DNA of 64,000 bases from Clostridia bacterium (GTDB lineage: Bacteria > Bacillota > Clostridia > Oscillospirales > Acutalibacteraceae), in the NCBI GenBank assembly GCA_017452785.1, contig JAFTLT010000022.1, positions 37,553 through 101,552 on the forward strand, written 5' to 3'. Both the position numbers and the translations under genes were made by a program. The notes beneath the pieces are model-generated. The model did not search any database. It saw only the letters and a program-made list of their open reading frames with translations, and had not been told where the DNA came from. How positions within the stretch are numbered: position 1 is the first letter of the stretch; the number at the start of each line of letters is the position of its first letter. Below are positions 4,242 through 54,716 of this stretch, one piece after another.

Positions 4242-5285
4242 GTGAGAAATAAAGCAATTGGCTGTTTGATAATATTTCTTGCAGCTTTGATAGTAGGTCT
4301 TTACTTTGTCGGACCAAGTGTAAGAGATAAGCTTTTCACAACTCAGGTTGCAAGCGAGGATACAATTACCACTACTCGGCAGAGTACAACCAACGAAACA
4401 ACAACAGCTGCCACAACGGTTTCGCAGACACAGACTACCACTCATATTCAGCAGGTGGTTACAACCACTGCACCTCAGAACAGCGTTTACACCGAAAAAG
4501 AGGAAAATGTCTGGGCAACGAGAGATGTCAATATCAGGGCAAAGCCTACCACTAATTCAAAACAAGTGGGCAAGCTCCATGAGGGCAACAAAATTCTCAG
4601 ACTTGCCAAGGGTACTGACGGCTGGAGCCGTGTTATGTTTGAGGGTGAGGTCTGCTATATTTACAGCGAATATCTCACAACAACCGAACCTTTTAAGGTC
4701 AGCAGCAACAGAACAGTTATTGACCCCACGGGGGAGGACTGGAATCTTGTTGTCGTCAACACCAAAAGAGAAATTCCTGCCGACTATGTGCCGAAGCTGG
4801 CTGAAGTTGCATCATCGGGAGTATATATGGATTACCGTGTTGCACCGTATTATAACGCAATGTATGAGGCGGCTAAAAAAGACGGCATAATTCTCACACC
4901 TTATTCAGGTTACCGTTCATACGCAAGGCAGCAGCGAAACTATAATAACCTGACACAGCAGTATATGACACAGTATTCTCTTTCTAAAGAGGATGCAGCA
5001 GCAAAGGCCGCAACGGTTATTCTGCCACCGGGAACAAGTGAACATAACTTGGGTCTTGCTATGGATATATGCAACACTAACTCAACCTTTAAAAATCAGA
5101 AGGAATATAAGTGGCTCACAGAGCACGCCCATGAATACGGCTTTATTCTCAGGTACACTGCCGAAAAGCAACCTATAACAGGAATTATCCCTGAGCCGTG
5201 GCACTGGAGATTTGTGGGAGTGGAATATGCTGAAAAAATCAAAAACAGCGGACTTTGCCTTGAAGAATATCTCGGAATTGAATAA
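4242..5285 (+). CDS. VanY-type D-alanyl-D-alanine carboxypeptidase with SH3b domain
   Basis: A 347-residue membrane-anchored enzyme predicted to trim the terminal D-Ala of peptidoglycan stem peptides. A GTG start follows AGAAAGAGGA. Residues about 5-25 form a membrane anchor, followed by a Thr-rich linker (about 35-80). A bacterial SH3 domain covers about 88-145 (VNIRAKPTTNSKQVG). The M15 peptidase domain covers about 160-345, with the zinc-site features SEHNLGLAMDIC and EPWHWRF. It lies downstream of a two-component pair, as vanY does, but no vanH, ligase or vanX gene is present. I read it as a housekeeping wall enzyme. Confidence 0.9.
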   Translation: MRNKAIGCLIIFLAALIVGLYFVGPSVRDKLFTTQVASEDTITTTRQSTTNETTTAATTVSQTQTTTHIQQVVTTTAPQNSVYTEKEENVWATRDVNIRAKPTTNSKQVGKLHEGNKILRLAKGTDGWSRVMFEGEVCYIYSEYLTTTEPFKVSSNRTVIDPTGEDWNLVVVNTKREIPADYVPKLAEVASSGVYMDYRVAPYYNAMYEAAKKDGIILTPYSGYRSYARQQRNYNNLTQQYMTQYSLSKEDAAAKAATVILPPGTSEHNLGLAMDICNTNSTFKNQKEYKWLTEHAHEYGFILRYTAEKQPITGIIPEPWHWRFVGVEYAEKIKNSGLCLEEYLGIE

Positions 5286-5747: not shown

Positions 5748-6872
5748 ATGGCAGATAAAAGCAGTGCACTCAATGCAGCTCTGGCGCAGATTGAAAAGCA
5801 ATACGGCAAGGGAGCAGTTATGCGTCTTGGTCAGAACACGGAAATGAATGTTGAAGCAATTTCAACAGGCTCACTTTCACTTGACCTTGCAACAGGCATA
5901 GGCGGGCTTCCGAAGGGAAGAATAGTTGAAATCTACGGCCCCGAATCATCAGGTAAAACAACTCTTGCACTTCACTGTATTGCCGAAGCTCAAAAGGCAG
6001 GCGGCGAGGCAGCCTTTATTGATGCTGAGCACGCACTTGACCCTGTTTATGCAAGGGGCATAGGTGTTGATGTTGATTCACTTCTTGTTTCACAGCCGGA
6101 TAACGGTGAAGATGCCCTTTCAATCACAGAGGCTCTTGCACGTTCAGGTGCTCTTGATATAATTGTTGTTGACTCTGTTGCTGCTCTTGTTCCCAGAGCA
6201 GAAATCGAGGGTGAAATGGGTGACAGTCATGTTGGTTTGCATGCAAGACTTATGTCACAGGCACTCAGAAAGCTCACAGCAGTTATTGCTAAGTCAAATA
6301 CTCTTGTTATTTTCATTAATCAGCTTCGTGAAAAGGTTGGTGTTATCTACGGCAACCCTGAGGTTACCACAGGCGGTCGTGCACTTAAATTCTATTCTTC
6401 AATGAGAATTGATGTCAGAAAAATTGAGCAGCTCAAGGCTTCAGGCAATGAGTTCATCGGTGCAAGAACAAGAGCAAAAATCGTTAAGAATAAGGTTTCA
6501 CCTCCGTTTAAAGAGGGTGAATTCGATATTATGTACGGCACAGGCATATCCCGTGAGGGTGAAATAGTTGACCTTGCTGTTAAGTTTGATATTATCAACA
6601 AGAGCGGTGCATGGTTCTCTTACGGTGAAACAAGACTCGGTCAGGGCAGAGATAACGTTAAAGCTCTTTTAAAGAAAGAGGATTCTCTGCGTGAGGAAAT
6701 TGACAGGAAGGTCAGAGAACGCTTTATGGAAGAAAAGGCTGCAGGTCAGGGCAAGGGCAAAGCTGAGGAAGCCAAGGCTCCTGCCGCAGAAGAAAAGAAG
6801 CCTGCCGTGAGAAGAACTGCAAGCTCAGTCAGAGCAAAAATAGACATTCTTGTTGACGATGATGACGAATAA
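5748..6872 (+). CDS. recA: recombinase RecA
   Basis: A 374-residue DNA strand-exchange ATPase and LexA co-protease. Walker A is GPESSGKTT, Walker B includes [12 protein letters not shown], and the DNA-binding loop region is around [22 protein letters not shown]. The C-terminal tail is Lys/Glu/Ala-rich and ends in Asp residues, as usual. The start has GGGAGG 9 bases upstream. Its TAA overlaps the ATG of recX by one base, so RecA and its modulator are co-translated. Confidence 0.98.
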
Positions 6873-9777: not shown

Positions 9778-9799
9778 ATACTATAATATCGAAATGCGA

Positions 9800-10034
9800 T
9801 AAAAGGGAGAAGTAATCACATTCTCTTCTTCTCAGAGAGAGGCAGTAAGGTGAAAGTGCCTCGTTGAAGACGTGATGAAATGCACCCTGTAGCACCCGTG
9901 GGGAAAGATATCGAGTATCTTCGGGCGTATACCGGCGTTAACGGTAGGGCAATAATTAAGTTGCCTTGAGTTATAAATCAGAGTGGAACCGCGTTACACG
10001 CCTCTGGTGCTTTAGGGCACAGGAGGCGTTTTTA
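9800..10034 (+). promoter_or_regulatory. T-box riboswitch, cysteine specifier (UGC)
   Basis: The T-box core GAGTGGAACCGCG is at 9981-9993 and is followed by a terminator hairpin (ACGCCTC/GAGGCGT, 9998-10030, then Ts). In stem I, AGGG and ATCAC (5' side) pair with CCCT and GTGAT (3' side). They enclose an AGTA motif facing GAAATGCA, so the specifier codon is TGC at 9881-9883, followed by A. The bulge reads UGGA, which pairs with UCCA and fits the U73 discriminator of tRNA-Cys. Uncharged tRNA-Cys should therefore switch on cysE-cysS. Two inserted genes now lie between leader and cysE. Confidence 0.9.
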
Positions 10035-15541: not shown

Positions 15542-15573
15542 TGCCGAGTGTTCTAAGGACACTCGGCAGTTTT
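15542..15573 (+). terminator. intrinsic terminator after murI and the QueG-like gene
   Basis: TGCCGAGTGT pairs perfectly with ACACTCGGCA around a 7-base loop and is followed by GTTTT. Confidence 0.8.
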
Positions 15574-15661
15574 ATTCGCCTTATGGCGAGTGATATTGCT
15601 TTGCAGTGATATTATACCATGCATAGTTATATTGCTCTTCGGTCAGTTTTGGTGAATAAAA
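15570..15661. mobile_element. small element with terminal inverted repeats (MITE-like)
   Basis: TTTTATTCGCC at 15570-15580 and GGTGAATAAAA at 15651-15661 are inverted repeats with one mismatch. Between them lie short hairpin words such as GCGAGTGATATTGC and TTGCAGTGATATTA. There is no coding capacity. The sequence type resembles the ATATCAC-rich repeats common in gut clostridia. The left end overlaps the T tract of the murI terminator. Confidence 0.5.
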
Positions 15662-15845: not shown

Positions 15846-15930
15846 TGGTGCGAGAGACGGGACTTGAACCCGTACGAGCTGCCCCACACGCCCCTCAAAC
15901 GTGCGCGTCTGCCGATTCCGCCACTCTCGC
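15846..15930 (-). tRNA. tRNA-Leu (anticodon GAG)
   Basis: An 85-base tRNA including an encoded CCA. The acceptor stem is GCGAGAG/CTCTCGC with discriminator A. The anticodon arm is CACGT-TTGAGGG-GCGTG, giving anticodon GAG, which reads CUC and CUU. A long variable arm fits class II leucine tRNA. CUC is also the specifier proposed for the first sensor of the T-box at 48118. Confidence 0.95.
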
Positions 15931-46837: not shown

Positions 46838-47866
46838 ATGTCATCATTGTTTCTGACAATTAAAAACATTTTCCACGGTGCTGTTGCGGTTCTGATGCTT
46901 ATTCCGATTATGCTCACTATGGGTGATGCAGGCGACTCTGACACAGAGGTTGTGACTTTTCCCGAATCAACAAATCAGTATATAAGCCAATATCTTAACC
47001 CTGACATTGCAGCTCACCGCTCAGGTGGGGGAATTGCACCGCAGAACACGCTGATGGCATTTGAAAATATATTGGCAAATGCCGATACTCTTGGGGTTGA
47101 CACTTTAGAATTTGATGTGCAGATAACCAAAGACGGTGAACTGGTACTCATTCACGATTTAACCTATGATGCAGTGTCAGATGCAAAGGAAGCCTTTGGC
47201 AAAAGTAATGTATTTGTTTCTTCACTGACTTTGGAGCAGGCGAAAACTCTTAACATGGGCGAAAACTTTTATGTTGACGGTGAGTACCCTTACAGGGGCC
47301 TGAGAGGGGAGGATATCCCTCATAATCTCAGGGTGGTGACCTGTGACGAGGTTATTGATTATGTTGAGGCTAACTGCGGCGGCAGGCAGTACCGCTATGC
47401 AATAGAAATTAAAAGTATAGGCTCAGGCGGCAGAAGGGCGGCAGACAAGCTTCACTCAATTATAACTGAGCGAAAGCTTCAGCATAGAGTTATGTGGTCA
47501 ACCTTTGCACCCATAACATCAGCATATATGCAGTCACGGTACCCTGAAATTTTCCGCACGGCAGATGCCATTGAGGCGGTTCAGTTTTATTTCTACTACA
47601 GAATGAACTGGGATCTGCAGGATGTGAGTCCTTCCTACACAGCTTTGCAGATCCCTTACGGTGCGAGTGCATTTGACAACCTGATAAATCTCGGCACAAG
47701 AGAGATGCTCAATTACGCACATAAAAACAACATTGCAGTGCAGTATTGGACAATCAACAGCGAAGAGGAAATCAGAACCCTCACCGAAAACGGTGCAGAC
47801 TGTATTATGACCGACTATCCTGATACTGCATATGAAACAGTGAAGTCTTTCGGAGTGAAGAAATGA
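46838..47866 (+). CDS. membrane-anchored glycerophosphodiester phosphodiesterase
   Basis: A 342-residue enzyme that cleaves glycerophosphodiesters or related teichoic-acid bonds. Residues about 10-30 form an N-terminal anchor. The TIM-barrel GDPD motifs are IAAHRSGGGIAPQNT, LEFDVQITKDG and LIHD, with QYWTINSEEEIR and DCIMTDYPD near the end. This supplies the catalytic His pair and metal-binding Glu/Asp residues. It follows rnpB, and a terminator closes it. Confidence 0.92.
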   Translation: MSSLFLTIKNIFHGAVAVLMLIPIMLTMGDAGDSDTEVVTFPESTNQYISQYLNPDIAAHRSGGGIAPQNTLMAFENILANADTLGVDTLEFDVQITKDGELVLIHDLTYDAVSDAKEAFGKSNVFVSSLTLEQAKTLNMGENFYVDGEYPYRGLRGEDIPHNLRVVTCDEVIDYVEANCGGRQYRYAIEIKSIGSGGRRAADKLHSIITERKLQHRVMWSTFAPITSAYMQSRYPEIFRTADAIEAVQFYFYYRMNWDLQDVSPSYTALQIPYGASAFDNLINLGTREMLNYAHKNNIAVQYWTINSEEEIRTLTENGADCIMTDYPDTAYETVKSFGVKK

Positions 47867-47876
47867 GAATAATTAA

Positions 47877-47909
47877 ACCGAGGCAACTACAGTGGTTGTC
47901 TCGGTTTTT
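47877..47909 (+). terminator. intrinsic terminator after the GDPD gene
   Basis: ACCGAGGCAAC pairs with GGTTGTCTCGGT around a short loop, followed by TTTTG. Confidence 0.85.
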
Positions 47910-48063
47910 GTGTGGGTAGAGTTATCTAATTGGAAATGATTTAATAAATTACACCCTTGGTTTTCACATATTAAGTTAGTTTGGCAATTAAGATTATAGC
48001 TAAAGAAAAAATAATATTCAATAATAATTCAAAAATGTATTTCATATTTCTTTCAAAAACCCC

Positions 48064-48092
48064 TTGACATCCTCACTTTAAAGTGATAAACT
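48064..48092 (+). promoter_or_regulatory. promoter of the ilvA-leuACDB leader
   Basis: TTGACA (48064-48069) is followed after 17 bases by TAAACT (48087-48092) with TG just before it. Transcription would begin near 48099, 20 bases before the first T-box stem. Confidence 0.65.
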
Positions 48093-48117
48093 ATAAAAGC
48101 AAAATGAATATTGATTA

Positions 48118-48576
48118 AAAGCTGTGACGAAGATCGGTCAAGGCGAAAACATTCAGAGAACTGATGGACGGTGCGAATCAGTATGTTCGGAACTTGATTT
48201 TCTCCCTTCTGAGCTGCTTGCCTGAACCCCGCTTTGCGGTGTATAGGGTAAGCCGTGTATGCTACGTTAGTGCATAGAGGTTGTTCGACTTCGAAAATAA
48301 AGGCTATGACGAAGACGGAAGCTACGAGCCATTTTTCCAGAGAGTCGGGGACGGTGTAATCCCGATAAAATGCAGTAGATTTTCCCATCACTTCCGAGCC
48401 GGAAGTCCCAAAGGCTTAACACCCAGTAGGCGCTTCCCGTGGATGCTGCGTTAATGCATAGAAGTTGTCTGACTTCGAAGAGGTGGCGGATTTTATTTCC
48501 GCAATTTGAGTGGTACCGCGAGTGATTTTTTTCATTTCACCCGTCTCAAAGCAAACTTAGCTTTGAGGCGGGTTTT
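48118..48576 (+). promoter_or_regulatory. double-sensor T-box riboswitch, Leu (CUC) then Ile (AUC), one antiterminator
   Basis: Two tandem units of about 183 bases each hold a complete stem I base and stem II region. Unit A (48120-48295) has AGCT/AGCT, a GTGAC kink-turn and GAAG/CTTC enclosing the specifier CTC (48202-48204). Unit B (48302-48479) has GGCT/AGCC and GAAG/CTTC enclosing ATC (48387-48389). Only unit B is followed by the T-box core GAGTGGTACCGCG (48508-48520) and a terminator (CCCGTCTCAAAGC/GCTTTGAGGCGGG, 48540-48572, then T4). The bulge UGGU fits the A73 of both tRNA-Leu and tRNA-Ile. Readout of both amino acids suits the downstream genes. Confidence 0.8.
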
Positions 48577-48630
48577 GTCTTTGCCTTAAAGCAACAAACT
48601 TATGCATAGTATAGAATATGGAAAGGCGGA

Positions 48631-49827
48631 ATGAATATGTTATCTCTATCAAAAGTATTCAATGCACAGACGGTGCTTAAAAGCATTATCCGTGAAACTA
48701 ATGTTGTAAGGGCTCACGGTATTGCTCCCGACTGTAAGCTATATCTCAAGCCTGAAAATTTGCAGTTCACAGGTTCATTTAAAGTCAGAGGTGCCGCATA
48801 TAAGATTGCGATGCTGTCAGAAGAAGAAAAGAAAAAAGGTGTAATTGCCTGTTCGGCAGGTAACCACGCTCAGGGTGTGGCTCTTGCGGCAACAAAAAAC
48901 GGCATAAAGTCACTCATCTGCCTGCCTGATACAGCACCTATTTCAAAGGTTGAAGCAACCAAGGGCTTCGGGGCGGAGGTTTGTCTGGTTGAAGGCTGCT
49001 ATGATGACGCGTACCAGAAAGCTTTGGAGCTAAAAGAAAGTGAAGGCTATACCTTCGTGCATCCCTTCGACGATGAAAATGTTATTGCAGGTCAGGGTAC
49101 GGTGGCTCTTGAAATTCTGAATGACCTTGACGATATTGATGCTATTGTTGTACCCATCGGTGGCGGTGGACTCATTGCAGGTGTTGCCTATACGGTCAAG
49201 CAGATTAAGCCTGAGGTCAAGGTTTACGGTGTGCAGGTTTCGGGTGCACCGAGCATGTATAACTCGATTAAAGACGGAGAAATTGAGTGTCTCAGCTCCG
49301 TTTCAACCATTGCCGACGGCATCGCCGTTAAAAAGCCGGGTGAAAACACTTATGCACTTGTCAAAGAGTATGTGGATGATATTGCTCTTGTTAGTGATGA
49401 CGAGGTGTCAAGTGCAATTCTTGCCCTAATTGAAAAGCAGAAGATGATTGCTGAGGGCGCAGGTGCTGCTGCCGTTGCAGCGGTGATGTTTGATAAGTTT
49501 GACCTTAAGGGCAAGCGGGTTGTTGCAATTGTTTCAGGCGGCAACATTGATGTTACAAGTCTTTCCCGTGTTATTGACCGAGGACTTCTCAATTCGGGTC
49601 GTTCCTCAAGTCTTCTTATTGAGCTTATTGACAAGCCCGGCCAGCTTAAGGATATTTCACGCATTATTGCCGATTGCGGCGGTAACGTAACAGGTGTTCA
49701 CTATGAAAAGGGCAACACCGAAAGCGTAAACGGATGTTTCCTGCGAATTGAAATGGAAACGAGAGACTATGACCATGTTAACCTCATCATTCAGTCTTTG
49801 CGTGATGAAGGCTTTAAAACAGTATAA
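48631..49827 (+). CDS. ilvA: threonine dehydratase (ammonia-lyase)
   Basis: A 398-residue PLP enzyme converting threonine to 2-oxobutanoate, the entry to isoleucine synthesis. The PLP lysine is in FTGSFKVRGAAYK, the Gly-rich phosphate loop is VPIGGGGLIAG and an ACT domain covers about 325-398 (LLIELIDKPGQLKDISRII). The ACT domain suggests allosteric control. The length fits the short Firmicute form. It is the first gene of the leu operon, which explains the Ile specifier in the leader. Confidence 0.92.
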   Translation: MNMLSLSKVFNAQTVLKSIIRETNVVRAHGIAPDCKLYLKPENLQFTGSFKVRGAAYKIAMLSEEEKKKGVIACSAGNHAQGVALAATKNGIKSLICLPDTAPISKVEATKGFGAEVCLVEGCYDDAYQKALELKESEGYTFVHPFDDENVIAGQGTVALEILNDLDDIDAIVVPIGGGGLIAGVAYTVKQIKPEVKVYGVQVSGAPSMYNSIKDGEIECLSSVSTIADGIAVKKPGENTYALVKEYVDDIALVSDDEVSSAILALIEKQKMIAEGAGAAAVAAVMFDKFDLKGKRVVAIVSGGNIDVTSLSRVIDRGLLNSGRSSSLLIELIDKPGQLKDISRIIADCGGNVTGVHYEKGNTESVNGCFLRIEMETRDYDHVNLIIQSLRDEGFKTV

Positions 49828-49850: not shown

Positions 49851-51527
49851 ATGATGGATTCAACAAAATATCAGGTGGGATATTTTCCCGTAGACAAGAA
49901 GTATAACAAATGGGTAGAAAAAGACCATGTTGAAAAGCCACCCGTATGGTGCAGCGTAGATATGCGTGACGGCAATCAGAGTCTGGTTATTCCCATGAGC
50001 CTTGAAGAAAAGCTCGAATATTATCAGGTGCTCCTTGATGTCGGCTTCAAGGAAATTGAAGTTGGCTTTCCTGCAGCAAGCGAAACTGAATATGAGTTTC
50101 TGCGCACCCTTATTGATAACAATATGATTCCCGATGATGTAACTGTTCAGGTGCTCACACAGTGCCGTGAGCATATTATCCGCAAGACCTTTGATGCCTG
50201 CAAGGGCGCACCGAGTGCTATTATTCACTTTTATAACTCAGTGAGTGTGGCTCAGCGTGAGCAGGTCTTTAAAAAGAGCAAAGAAGAAATCAAGCAGATT
50301 GCCATTGACGGTGCAAAGCTCGTTAAGAAGCTGGCAAGTGAATATGAAGGCAACTTCCGTTTTGAATATTCGCCCGAATCCTTTACAGGTACCGAGCCGG
50401 AATATGCCCTTGAGGTGTGCAACGCAGTTCTTGATGTGCTTGAGCCGAGTGCAGATAACAATGTCATTATTAACCTGCCCGTTACAGTTGAAATGAGTCT
50501 TCCTCATGTTTACGCTTCACAGGTTGAGTATATGAACGAAAACCTCAAATACCGTGAGCATGTAACTATTTCACTTCATCCTCACAACGACAGAGGCACG
50601 GGCGTTGCCGACACAGAGCTTGCACTGCTTGCAGGTGCAGACCGTGTTGAGGGCACTCTTTTCGGCAACGGTGAGAGAACGGGTAATGTTGACATAATAA
50701 CTCTGGCTATGAATATGTATTCCCACGGTGTTGACCCGAAGCTTGATCTTTCAAATATGAACAACCTTGTTGAAACCTATGAAAGATGCACCCGTATGCA
50801 CGTTTATGAAAGAGCACCCTATGCGGGAGCGCTTGTCTTTGCTGCATTCTCAGGCTCACATCAGGATGCTATTGCAAAGGGTATGAAATACAGAAGCAAA
50901 AACAAGCTTCATCAGTGGAGTGTTCCCTATATCCCCATTGACCCGAAGGATATCGGCAGAACTTACGATGCCGATGTTATCAGAGTTAATTCACAGTCAG
51001 GCAAGGGCGGCATCGGCTATCTGCTTGAGCAGACCTTCGGATACAACCTGCCTGCAAAAATGCGTGAGCATTTCAGCTATATGTGCAAGAGCGTTTCCGA
51101 TCACGAGCATAAAGAACTCAAGCCCGATGAGGTTCTCGATATCTTCACAGAAAACTATCTTAATCTTAACAGCGGTATTGAAGTTACAGACTTCGACTTT
51201 GAGCGTGAAAACGATGCCGTGAAAATAAATATCACCTTTATGCGTGGCGGGGAGGAGACAGAGCTTGAAGCTGAAGGCAACGGCTCTCTCAGCGCAATCA
51301 ACAATGCACTTAAGGCATATACCGGCCAGGATTACACCTTGCAGGTATTCACTCAGCACAGTATGCAGGGACAAGGCTCACACAGTGTAGCAGCCTCATA
51401 TATCGGACTTGAAAGAGAAAACGGCGACATGTTCTGGGGAGCAGGCACTGACACAGACGTTATCACAGCAAGCACTAATGCGCTTTTGAGTGCCTTCTAT
51501 AATATGACAAAAGGAGATGCAGAATAA
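49851..51527 (+). CDS. leuA: 2-isopropylmalate synthase, LeuA2 type
   Basis: A 558-residue enzyme condensing acetyl-CoA with 2-oxoisovalerate, the first committed step of leucine synthesis. The N-terminal DMRDGNQSL and [13 protein letters not shown] are the metal/substrate motifs of the HMGL TIM barrel. The C-terminal regulatory domain covers about 430-558. The length and the N-terminal extension fit the LeuA type 2 subfamily. GAGG lies about 9 bases upstream. It overlaps leuC by one base. Confidence 0.93.
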
Positions 51528-52786
51528 TGGGAATGACAATGACACAAAAAATTCTTGCCGCTCACGCAGGACTTGAAAGCGTTACGGCAGGACAGCTTAT
51601 AAGCGCAAAGCTCGATATTGTTCTTGGCAATGATATTACAACACCCGTGGCGGTAAATGAATTTAAAAAGGCAGGCTTTGAGAAGGTCTTTGACAAAGAC
51701 AGAGTTGCTATTGTACTCGACCACTTTGTGCCGAATAAAGACATTAAAGCCGCTGAGCAGAGTAAAACCTGCCGAGAGTTTGCCTGCTCACACTGCGTAA
51801 GTCACTTTTACGATGTGGGCAAAATGGGCATTGAGCACGCTCTTCTTCCAGAACAGGGTGTTGTCACTGCAGGCGACTGCATTATCGGTGCAGACAGCCA
51901 CACCTGCACCTACGGTGCATTAGGTGCCTTCTCAACGGGTGTGGGCTCAACAGATATGGCAGCAGGCATGGCAACGGGTATGGCATGGTTTAAGGTGCCC
52001 TCAGCAATTAAGTTTAATCTTACGGGTACTCTGCCGAAAAACTGCAGCGGTAAGGATGTTATCCTCACCATTATCGGTATGATCGGTGTTGACGGTGCGC
52101 TCTATAAGAGTATGGAATTCACAGGTGACGGTGCACACTCACTTTCAATGGACGACAGACTCTGTATTTGTAATATGGCTATTGAAGCAGGTGCAAAAAA
52201 CGGCATTTTCCCCGTTGACGATGTTACACTTGAATATTTTGATGGCAGAAGTGAAAGAAATCCAGTCATATATCAGGCTGACGAGGATGCAGAATATGAA
52301 AGGGTAATTGATATTGATTTAAGCAAAATCGTGCCCACTGTTGCTTGTCCTCATCTTCCTGAAAACACACACCCTGCAAGTGAGCTCAGTCACATCAGGG
52401 TTGATCAGGTGGTTATCGGTTCATGCACCAACGGCAGAATGGAGGATATGGAAGCGGCATATAACATCCTTAAGGACAAAAAGATTGCTGACGGAATCCG
52501 TTGCATCATCATTCCCGGCACAATGCAGATTCTTCGTGAATGTGTTGAAAGAGGCTGGTACACCGCATTCATCGATGCAGGTGCAGTTGTTTCAACTCCT
52601 ACCTGCGGCCCCTGTCTTGGCGGATATATGGGCATACTTGCTGCAGGCGAAAAGTGCATTGCTACAACCAACCGTAACTTTGTCGGCAGAATGGGACATA
52701 CAGAAAGCGAAGTCTACCTTGCGTCCCCCCACACAGCCGCCGCAAGCGCCCTGACAGGATATATCACCGAATATAAGGAGGACTGA
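51527..52786 (+). CDS. leuC: 3-isopropylmalate dehydratase large subunit
   Basis: A 419-residue aconitase-type subunit. The 4Fe-4S ligands are the Cys in [12 protein letters not shown] and the pair in CGPCLGG. It works with LeuD to isomerise 2- to 3-isopropylmalate. The start overlaps the leuA stop (TAATG) with GGAG 10 bases upstream. Confidence 0.96.
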
Positions 52787-52789
52787 CAG

Positions 52790-53287
52790 ATGAATACACA
52801 AGGTAAAGTTTTTAAATATCCCGACAATGTTGACACTGACGTTATTATTCCCGCACGTTATCTCAACACTCCCGATGCAAAGGAATTAGCTCTTCATTGT
52901 ATGGAAGATATAGATACTGAATTCGTCAAAAAAGTACAGACAGGCGATGTTATGGTTGCAGGCTGGAACTTTGGCTGCGGCTCATCGAGAGAACACGCAC
53001 CTCTTGTTATAAAAACCTGCGGCACGGGTTGCGTTATTGCCAAGAGCTTTGCAAGAATTTTCTACCGTAATGCAATAAATATCGGTTTGCCCATTCTTGA
53101 ATGTGAAGAAGCCGCAGAAGAAATAAACGCAGATGATGAAGTAAAGGTTGATTTTGACACAGGTATCATCACAAACATCACAAGCGGAAAAACCTATAAG
53201 GCTCCGCCTTTCCCACCCTTTATTCAGAATATTATAAAATGCGGAGGACTCCTTAAATCCTTGAAAGAAGGCGAAAACAATGACTAA
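52790..53287 (+). CDS. leuD: 3-isopropylmalate dehydratase small subunit
   Basis: A 165-residue swivelling-domain partner of Leu[13 protein letters not shown] and the [11 protein letters not shown] loop bind substrate. The length is that of stand-alone bacterial LeuD of the short kind. It follows leuC by 3 bases and overlaps leuB by 8. Confidence 0.96.
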
Positions 53288-54344
53288 AAATATTGCTGTT
53301 ATCCGTGGTGACGGAATAGGACCCGAAATTGTTGGTGAGGCTCTTAAGGTGCTTGATAAGGTTGCAGAACTTTACGGACACACTTTCAATTATACCGATG
53401 TAGATATGGGTGGTTGTGCCATTGATAAATACGGCGACCCCCTGCCCGAAAGTGAGCTTAAGAAGTGCATAGAATCTGACAGCGTGCTTCTTGGTGCTGT
53501 CGGCGGAGATAAGTGGAACGATGTTCCCGGTCATATGCGCCCTGAGAAAGGGCTTCTCAGGCTTCGTGCAGGTATGGGTGTTTATTCCAACAACCGTCCT
53601 GCAAAAATCTGGAAGCAGCTTTCTGCTGCTTCACCCTTAAAGAAAAGCATTGTTGATGAGGGCATTGACTTCATTATTGTCCGTGAGCTTATCGGCGGTA
53701 TATACTTCGGTGAACACAAAACTGAGGGTGACACTGCCATTGATATACTCAAATACAATGAAGCTGAAATCGAGCGTATCGGCAGAATCGGCTTTGAAAC
53801 TGCACAGAAACGAAACAAGAAGCTCTGCAGCGTTGAAAAGAGCAATGTGCTTGACAGCAGCCGTCTTTGGAAAAAGGTTATGCATAAACTCGCTGAGGAA
53901 TATCCCGATGTTGAGCTCAGCGATATGCTTGTTGATAACTGTGCAATGCAGATAGTGAAAAATCCCTCTCAGTTTGATGTAATTGTAACAGAGAATATGT
54001 TCGGTGACATTCTTTCTGACGAGGCTTCAATGATTACAGGCTCAATCGGTATGATTCCTTCCTCAAGCCTCGGTGCAACCTCCTGCGGACTTTATGAGCC
54101 TATTCACGGTTCAGCCCCCGATATTGCAGGCAAGGATATTGCTAACCCCATAGGCACAATTCTTTCTGCAGCTATGATGCTTCGCTTCAGCTTTGATATG
54201 GCTAAGGAAGCAGATGCAATTGAAAATGCTGTTTCTGCTTATCTTGATGCGGGATATCGCACAGGTGACATTATGAGCGAAGGTATGATAAAGGTTGGCT
54301 GCAAGCAGTGTGGGGAGCTGATTGCAGAAAGAATCGGGATATAA
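53280..54344 (+). CDS. leuB: 3-isopropylmalate dehydrogenase
   Basis: A 354-residue NAD-dependent decarboxylating dehydrogenase. GDGIGPEIV opens the fold. The substrate arginines are in [18 protein letters not shown], and [16 protein letters not shown] holds the metal-binding Asp residues. It is the last gene of the operon and overlaps leuD by 8 bases. No clear terminator follows before the trpB promoter at 54389. Confidence 0.97.
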
Positions 54345-54417: not shown

Positions 54418-54439
54418 GTAGTAAACTTAATAATCAAAC

Positions 54440-54716
54440 CGTTGAAGCGGAGATAACGGCAATGATGCCTTTACAGAGAGCCTGTGGTGCTGAGAGTCAG
54501 GTAAGAAACAAGTTGTCAAATGGACCGCTGAGGGCGCAGTCAAATGGATTTTTCCAAAGTATTCTGCGACGCTGTAGGCAAGCGTATAAATGCCGGGGAT
54601 ATGTTGGTATCCTGCTAAGCGCATAGGGTCATCCCTATGAATCAAGGTGGCACCGCGGATAGTGTTTATATTATTCGTCCTTGACAGATGGTATTATTCT
54701 GTCAGGGGCGTTTTTT
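54440..54716 (+). promoter_or_regulatory. T-box riboswitch, tryptophan specifier (UGG)
   Basis: The T-box core AGGTGGCACCGCGG is at 54645-54657, and the terminator hairpin (54676-54710) runs into six Ts. In stem I AGCGG (54446-54450) pairs with CCGCT, and the specifier just before it is TGG at 54521-54523, followed by A. The bulge UGGC pairs with GCCA and fits the G73 discriminator of bacterial tRNA-Trp. Uncharged tRNA-Trp should turn on the trpB gene. Confidence 0.9.

Follow-up and report, generated by a model that had tools for sequence, protein, structure and literature searches.

A T-box leader variant in Clostridia in which a leucine and an isoleucine sensor module precede a single antiterminator

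The leader of an ilvA-leuACDB operon in a Clostridia bacterium raises the question of how one T-box antiterminator can be joined to two sensors that specify different amino acids. Read directly from the sequence, positions 48118-48576 of the window (the whole 64,000-nt stretch of DNA analysed) hold two T-box sensor modules, units A and B, each with a stem I, a stem II and a stem IIA/B, and downstream of both a single stem III, T-box core, antiterminator and terminator, followed by the operon (Table 1). A first-pass annotation made from the letters had named the genes ilvA and leuACDB, and profile matches bore this out for all five. The modules, from stem I with its specifier and T-loops to the terminator, are those found throughout single-sensor transcriptional T-boxes for Leu or Ile (RF00230), the difference being one extra complete sensor, unit A, about 185 nt 5′ of the normal sensor position. 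The specifiers, CTC and ATC, are 185 nt apart in separate stems, at the coordinates first annotated. CAGAGA occurs at 48154 and 48338; GGTACCGCG occurs once in 48001-48600, at 48512, and the only terminator-like site in 47850-48640 is the one in Table 1, against 0.7 expected from shuffles. Only the second unit is thus followed by a T-box core and a terminator, as had been claimed, and that single platform has the core, UGGN bulge and competing intrinsic terminator of a transcriptional T-box. The promoter-like match just 5′ of unit A is weak alone because three such sites were found in the region against 1.6 expected.

Table 1. Coordinates in the window of the leader elements, the operon genes and a predicted tRNA partner
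Feature	Position	Strand	Evidence
tRNA-Leu(GAG), discriminator A73, predicted ligand of unit A	15846..15930	-	tRNA search
Promoter-like TTGACA-17-TAAACT, just 5′ of unit A	48064..48092	+	Consensus match 10/12
Unit A stem I	48120..48215	+	Stem I model, 70.1 bits; alignment and pairing tests
Unit A specifier CTC (Leu)	48202..48204	+	Sequence position; conservation in relatives
Unit A stem II and stem IIA/B	48216..48295	+	Alignment structure; pairing test
Linker between sensors, 6 nt, without terminator	48296..48301	+	Linker measurement; terminator scan
Unit B stem I	48302..48400	+	Stem I model, 81.3 bits
Unit B specifier ATC (Ile)	48387..48389	+	Sequence position; conservation in relatives
Unit B stem II and stem IIA/B	48401..48479	+	Alignments
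Stem III hairpin	48487..48501	+	Folding; covarying in unit B alignment (columns 191-210)
Single antiterminator, T-box GAGTGGTACCGCG (48508-48520), bulge UGGUACC	48505..48550	+	Rfam alignment; sequence
Single intrinsic terminator	48539..48573	+	Terminator scan
ilvA, threonine ammonia-lyase	48631..49827	+	TIGR01127
leuA, 2-isopropylmalate synthase	49851..51527	+	NF002991
leuC	51527..52786	+	TIGR02083
leuD	52790..53287	+	TIGR02084
leuB	53280..54344	+	TIGR00169

Whether unit A is a genuine T-box stem I was judged with a stem I model trained on 25 single-sensor T-boxes (17 Ile and 8 Leu by specifier), a set that excluded the window leader and included L011, another T-box in the window's own genome; stem I model R1, which has only six pairs, was left out of the results. 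Run on the 64-kb window, the model matched both unit B (E = 2.2e-18) and unit A (E = 1.5e-15), so that each has the stem I and specifier of a transcriptional T-box, and in the leader of every one of 22 double loci scanned it gave two matches. The Rfam T-box model (RF00230), which spans stem I to antiterminator, matched unit B and the antiterminator only (48297-48551), at 76.1 bits against a gathering score of 93, which is a curators' threshold rather than a mechanistic feature, and had no match to unit A at E up to 1. The Rfam scan that had been suggested as a check therefore left unit A unreported and unit B below the gathering score; that unit A matches a T-box stem I model holds for the custom 25-leader model and not for Rfam's. 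At the gathering score, Rfam missed 15 of 16 double leaders, and its one match, in L132, ran from unit B onward. When units A and B were aligned with each other, 117 of 168 aligned columns were identical and the score was 133.5, compared to 59 ± 7 in 300 mononucleotide shuffles (maximum 82.5). The similarity is far above chance; the earlier wording that they align base for base was too strong, as the alignment is gapped. Two further T-boxes lie in the window: a standard one at 9790-10008 (106.4 bits) and one at 54433-54685, in the interval separating leuB from a TrpB-like gene, which narrowly missed the cut-off, at 92.5 bits, when the organism's own genome was searched; the stem I model weakly matched 54438-54534 (20.1 bits).

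Both units are conserved in relatives. In 17 double leaders, the unit B specifier was ATC in every case and the unit A specifier was CTC in 14 and GTC (Val) in three, consistent with the expectation that the specifiers would recur. AGAGA was invariant in all 17 rows of both unit alignments and, by reading of the same alignments, the UGxRA loop was kept in both (motif names from PMC7583486), giving each unit the T-loop motifs of a transcriptional T-box; TGAYGAAGA was also kept in all 17 unit A rows. Across 15 distinct sequences, 96.7% of the cells in a 36-pair unit A structure were paired and 12 of the 36 pairs had changes on both sides; the structure came mostly from RNAalifold on the same alignment as was tested, which tilts these figures in its favour. 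For paired cells, both-side changes and covariation score, none of 500 shuffles was as high, and sliding the structure by 1-3 columns left only 25-49% of cells paired. One of the five measures, further pair types, was not above the shuffles (439 of 500 as high). Mean column identity was 76% in the unit A alignment compared to 85% in that of unit B, a gap widened by the inclusion of the conserved T-box core in the latter. The proposal that the C after CTC might weaken unit A was not well supported, as the base after the specifier is C in 17 of 18 distinct unit As and 15 of 17 distinct unit Bs as well as in four of eight single-sensor Leu leaders, compared to one of 17 single-sensor Ile leaders.

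The search for the same double stem I in relatives, proposed with the first description of the leader, found the architecture in 25 genomes, 22 with Leu (or Val) then Ile and three with Ile then Leu, one of the latter cut by a contig end; this count is a lower bound because the search patterns were strict. Of 28 matches to a junction pattern run against genome contigs, 16 were double leaders and the other 12, which lacked T-box motifs, were dropped as chance (L054, L057, L059, L061, L062, L070, L071, L072, L075, L076, L079 and L081). In all 17 leaders made up of these 16 and the window's, the inter-unit linker is 6-12 nt, which is too short for a terminator, so that the sensors lie less than a terminator apart on one platform, as in adjacent aptamers. 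When 394 genomes of the order were searched separately for IlvA, 26 loci were obtained at E <= 1e-190, in which motifs and the stem I model identified two sensors at seven, one at 12 (7 Leu, 5 Ile) and none at seven, one of these cut by a contig end. Of the seven doubles, three belonged to the 17 leaders above, namely the window, G086 (L073) and G347 (L080); the search added G290, G153, G289 and, with the reversed order, G417. Pattern searches added G508 and G598, from other families of the class and with ilvA further downstream, and G688, with the reversed order upstream of ilvN-ilvC. The same reversed pair is present in G804, a genus-mate of G417 whose contig ends inside unit B with the platform beyond view. 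Within the window's genus, a nucleotide search found the double leader in two of 35 genomes, and IlvA was matched at E <= 1e-90 in seven of these genomes.

Chance pattern matches were expected since a reversed-pattern control gave 12 matches in the order search and nine in the class search, and matches left unnamed in the order and class searches were set aside on a reading of their first 80 bases. Several candidates proved to be single T-boxes: G118, G158 and G138 from the order search; L115 and L117, which have two AGAGA motifs and are single Leu leaders by reading and model; and the four T-box-like matches of one class-wide pattern, which misses this clade. Most named genomes are metagenome bins, while the records of Gemmiger sp. 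An87 and An194 carry no MAG label. Two nearly identical double leaders, L214 (G508) and L217 (G598), come from genomes placed in separate families of the class, reflecting either gene transfer or mixed bins, and L213 (G688, 1462-1918) is a strongly diverged Ile-then-Leu double sensor outside the window's order. With the stem I model matching both units and relatives sharing specifiers and architecture, the central observation of two different sensors on one antiterminator is confirmed, and the layout is a real, conserved and recurrent new variant of the T-box.

The double layout has at least two origins. A tree of 62 units joins the unit As to single Leu T-boxes (90/77) and 15 of the 17 unit Bs to a single Ile T-box (80/92), with those of L058 and L077 standing apart; these moderate supports suggest that the usual doubles were assembled from two existing sensors and not by fresh duplication. 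In G417, the two units are each other's closest kin, at 100/100 in this tree and 97/98 in a 78-row stem I tree, so that there the pair arose by internal duplication, with a separate origin and the opposite order. The reversed order occurs in G417, G804 and G688, and in G417 and G688 the stretch scanned contains one terminator-like site, after the second sensor. G688 may represent a third origin; the 78-row tree has few columns and does not place its units. The GTC unit As form one clade (100/96), most simply explained by a single Leu-to-Val specifier change.

Sensor type was compared with the downstream genes of the 26 ilvA loci, which are related, so the figures are given as counts with no test. 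Where leuA was in view (15 loci), five leaders were double, six single Leu, none single Ile and four without a sensor; where ilvB was in view, two were double, three single Ile, none single Leu and one without a sensor; five of the 26 loci showed neither gene. Dual sensing is not required for such operons, as only one sensor, for Leu, precedes an ilvA-leuA operon of the same genus (L047), six of the 15 leuA-linked loci are single Leu and seven of the 26 loci have no T-box sensor found by motif or model. A strict rule is also countered by L058 and L077, in which leuA follows the double leader immediately and ilvA is absent. The GTC unit As belong to three Fournierella genomes, two with ilvA-ilvB downstream and a third whose locus ends after ilvA. 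An ilvB-like gene follows ilvA in five of seven Fournierella and Gemmiger loci, the other two ending after ilvA, and the genes checked downstream in Gemmiger An194 are ilvB, ilvN and ilvC; a link between GTC and ilvB is suggestive only because CTC also occurs in four of these seven loci. Other regulatory RNAs were seen near related loci. L077 carries a T-box (4946-5188) and a glycine riboswitch aptamer (5911-6003) a few kilobases from its double leader, and three loci of the window's genus (L019, L036 and L043) have single Ile T-box leaders (ATC) before genes with similar first residues that resemble, by eye, an XRE-type regulator; L011 of the window's own genome is a similar Ile T-box.

The window itself encodes tRNA-Leu(GAG), the tRNA that unit A is predicted to bind, and the A73 of this tRNA complements the U of the UGGU bulge, in agreement with the suggestion that the shared bulge suits tRNA-Leu; tRNA-Val(GAC) of the same genome has A73 too. 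The check covered 27 of 30 tRNA loci, the other three lying in a cluster covered by one of the 27. The list of 30 tRNAs for this draft genome, which is 89.8% complete, lacks tRNA-Ile(GAU), probably because of a gap in the draft. A Gut-1 sRNA match (15567-15637, 50.2 bits against a threshold of 50) lies about 200 bases from tRNA-Leu(GAG).

Partially double T-boxes with a duplicated terminator-antiterminator, reportedly described by Vitreschak in 2008, also have part of the T-box duplicated and are the mirror image of the present leader, which has two sensors on one platform. Other systems were compared through partial texts that included PMC7778990, PMC2494555, PMC12452182, PMC9481103, PMC4052509, PMC11477304 and PMC9413887. 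Tandem T-boxes (trpE, thrZ, thrS, ilv) likewise have two sensors per leader, each on its own platform according to the portions available (PMC2494555, PMC12452182), in contrast to the shared platform here, where each sensor is not followed by its own antiterminator and terminator. The two terminators in series of tandem complete T-boxes are read, in the same partial text, as needing both tRNAs uncharged (PMC12452182). The two-codon T-box of Clostridium acetobutylicum (Saad 2013), as described in excerpts of PMC4052509, likewise serves two tRNAs from one leader and one platform, but with overlapping codon positions in one stem-loop rather than two whole stem I/II modules with distant specifiers. 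Glycine tandem aptamer and guanine-PRPP riboswitches also join two aptamers to one expression platform (PMC9481103, in part), although their ligands are small molecules and not tRNAs that must touch the platform. As excerpted, the same review of tandem riboswitches counts OR among the logic functions for which no natural case has been observed and suggests that it could be built from two ON switches that interact (PMC9481103). Literature searches, which did not extend to Vitreschak 2008 or the 2009 MMBR review, turned up no published leader with two stem I modules sharing a single antiterminator.

Given this anatomy, we consider it probable that the leader is a two-module, one-discriminator T-box that allows read-through when either leucine or isoleucine is short. 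The Leu CUC module and the Ile AUC module that follows it, each a complete decoding unit, would each dock its own tRNA through specifier-anticodon pairing and an elbow contact, with stem III, the antiterminator and the terminator serving both as a shared discriminator. The uncharged 3′-ACCA end of either tRNA would fill the single UGGU bulge and hold the antiterminator, that of the unit A tRNA having to reach the bulge across unit B, and the operon would be read through upon shortage of leucine or isoleucine. With a single platform, either tRNA could serve the bulge when uncharged, an arrangement that would suit an operon for two amino acids. A two-input function is likely and OR logic plausible; what we infer from the layout is that the tRNAs bind, that they share the bulge and that the output follows an OR truth table, and bases alone cannot tell OR from other logics.

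One such logic is AND, or tuning by the unit A tRNA of unit B affinity or folding, in a hierarchical or cooperative manner. Adjacent aptamers on one platform can interact, as in the guanine-PRPP IMPLY gate (PMC9481103, in part), and we regard this as possible but rather unlikely: the single UGGU bulge means that two tRNA ends are not usable at once, and the sensors occur in both orders, neither point being decisive. It is improbable that unit A is instead the relic of a Leu T-box whose platform disappeared at operon fusion, with the Ile unit alone at work. Its lack of an antiterminator and its greater variability relative to the unit B alignment would fit decay, yet its both-side changes, invariant AGAGA and TGAYGAAGA motifs, Leu or Val specifier in all 17 leaders and separate origin in the reversed order argue against it. 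Ordinary tandem T-boxes seen incompletely can be dismissed: full tandem T-boxes are enriched before branched-chain amino acid operons in the portion of PMC12452182 available, but the 17 measured linkers, one T-box core and one terminator-like site in each of three leaders scanned refute a second core or terminator between the units. An assembly or duplication artefact, which the many metagenome bins might have suggested, is refuted by independent genomes, as the leader recurs in separate assemblies, including those of Gemmiger sp. An87 and An194, and its two units differ from each other.

If the proposed OR reading is correct, tRNA decoding and aminoacylation sensing would be separable modules acting at a distance, and the distance between unit A and the sole bulge opens the tRNA-bridging model of T-box action to a direct test. 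An operon for two amino acids would then answer either shortage, whereas tandem full T-boxes would demand both. This conserved T-box layout is overlooked by Rfam-based scans, and Rfam models were used in the surveys of PMC12452182 and PMC9413887 by their own statement in the partial texts. Somewhat more tentatively, we lean toward regarding the leader as a natural RNA OR gate built from plug-in T-box sensor cassettes, with the two-on-one-antiterminator arrangement having arisen at least twice and in both orders, matching operons that serve two amino acids.
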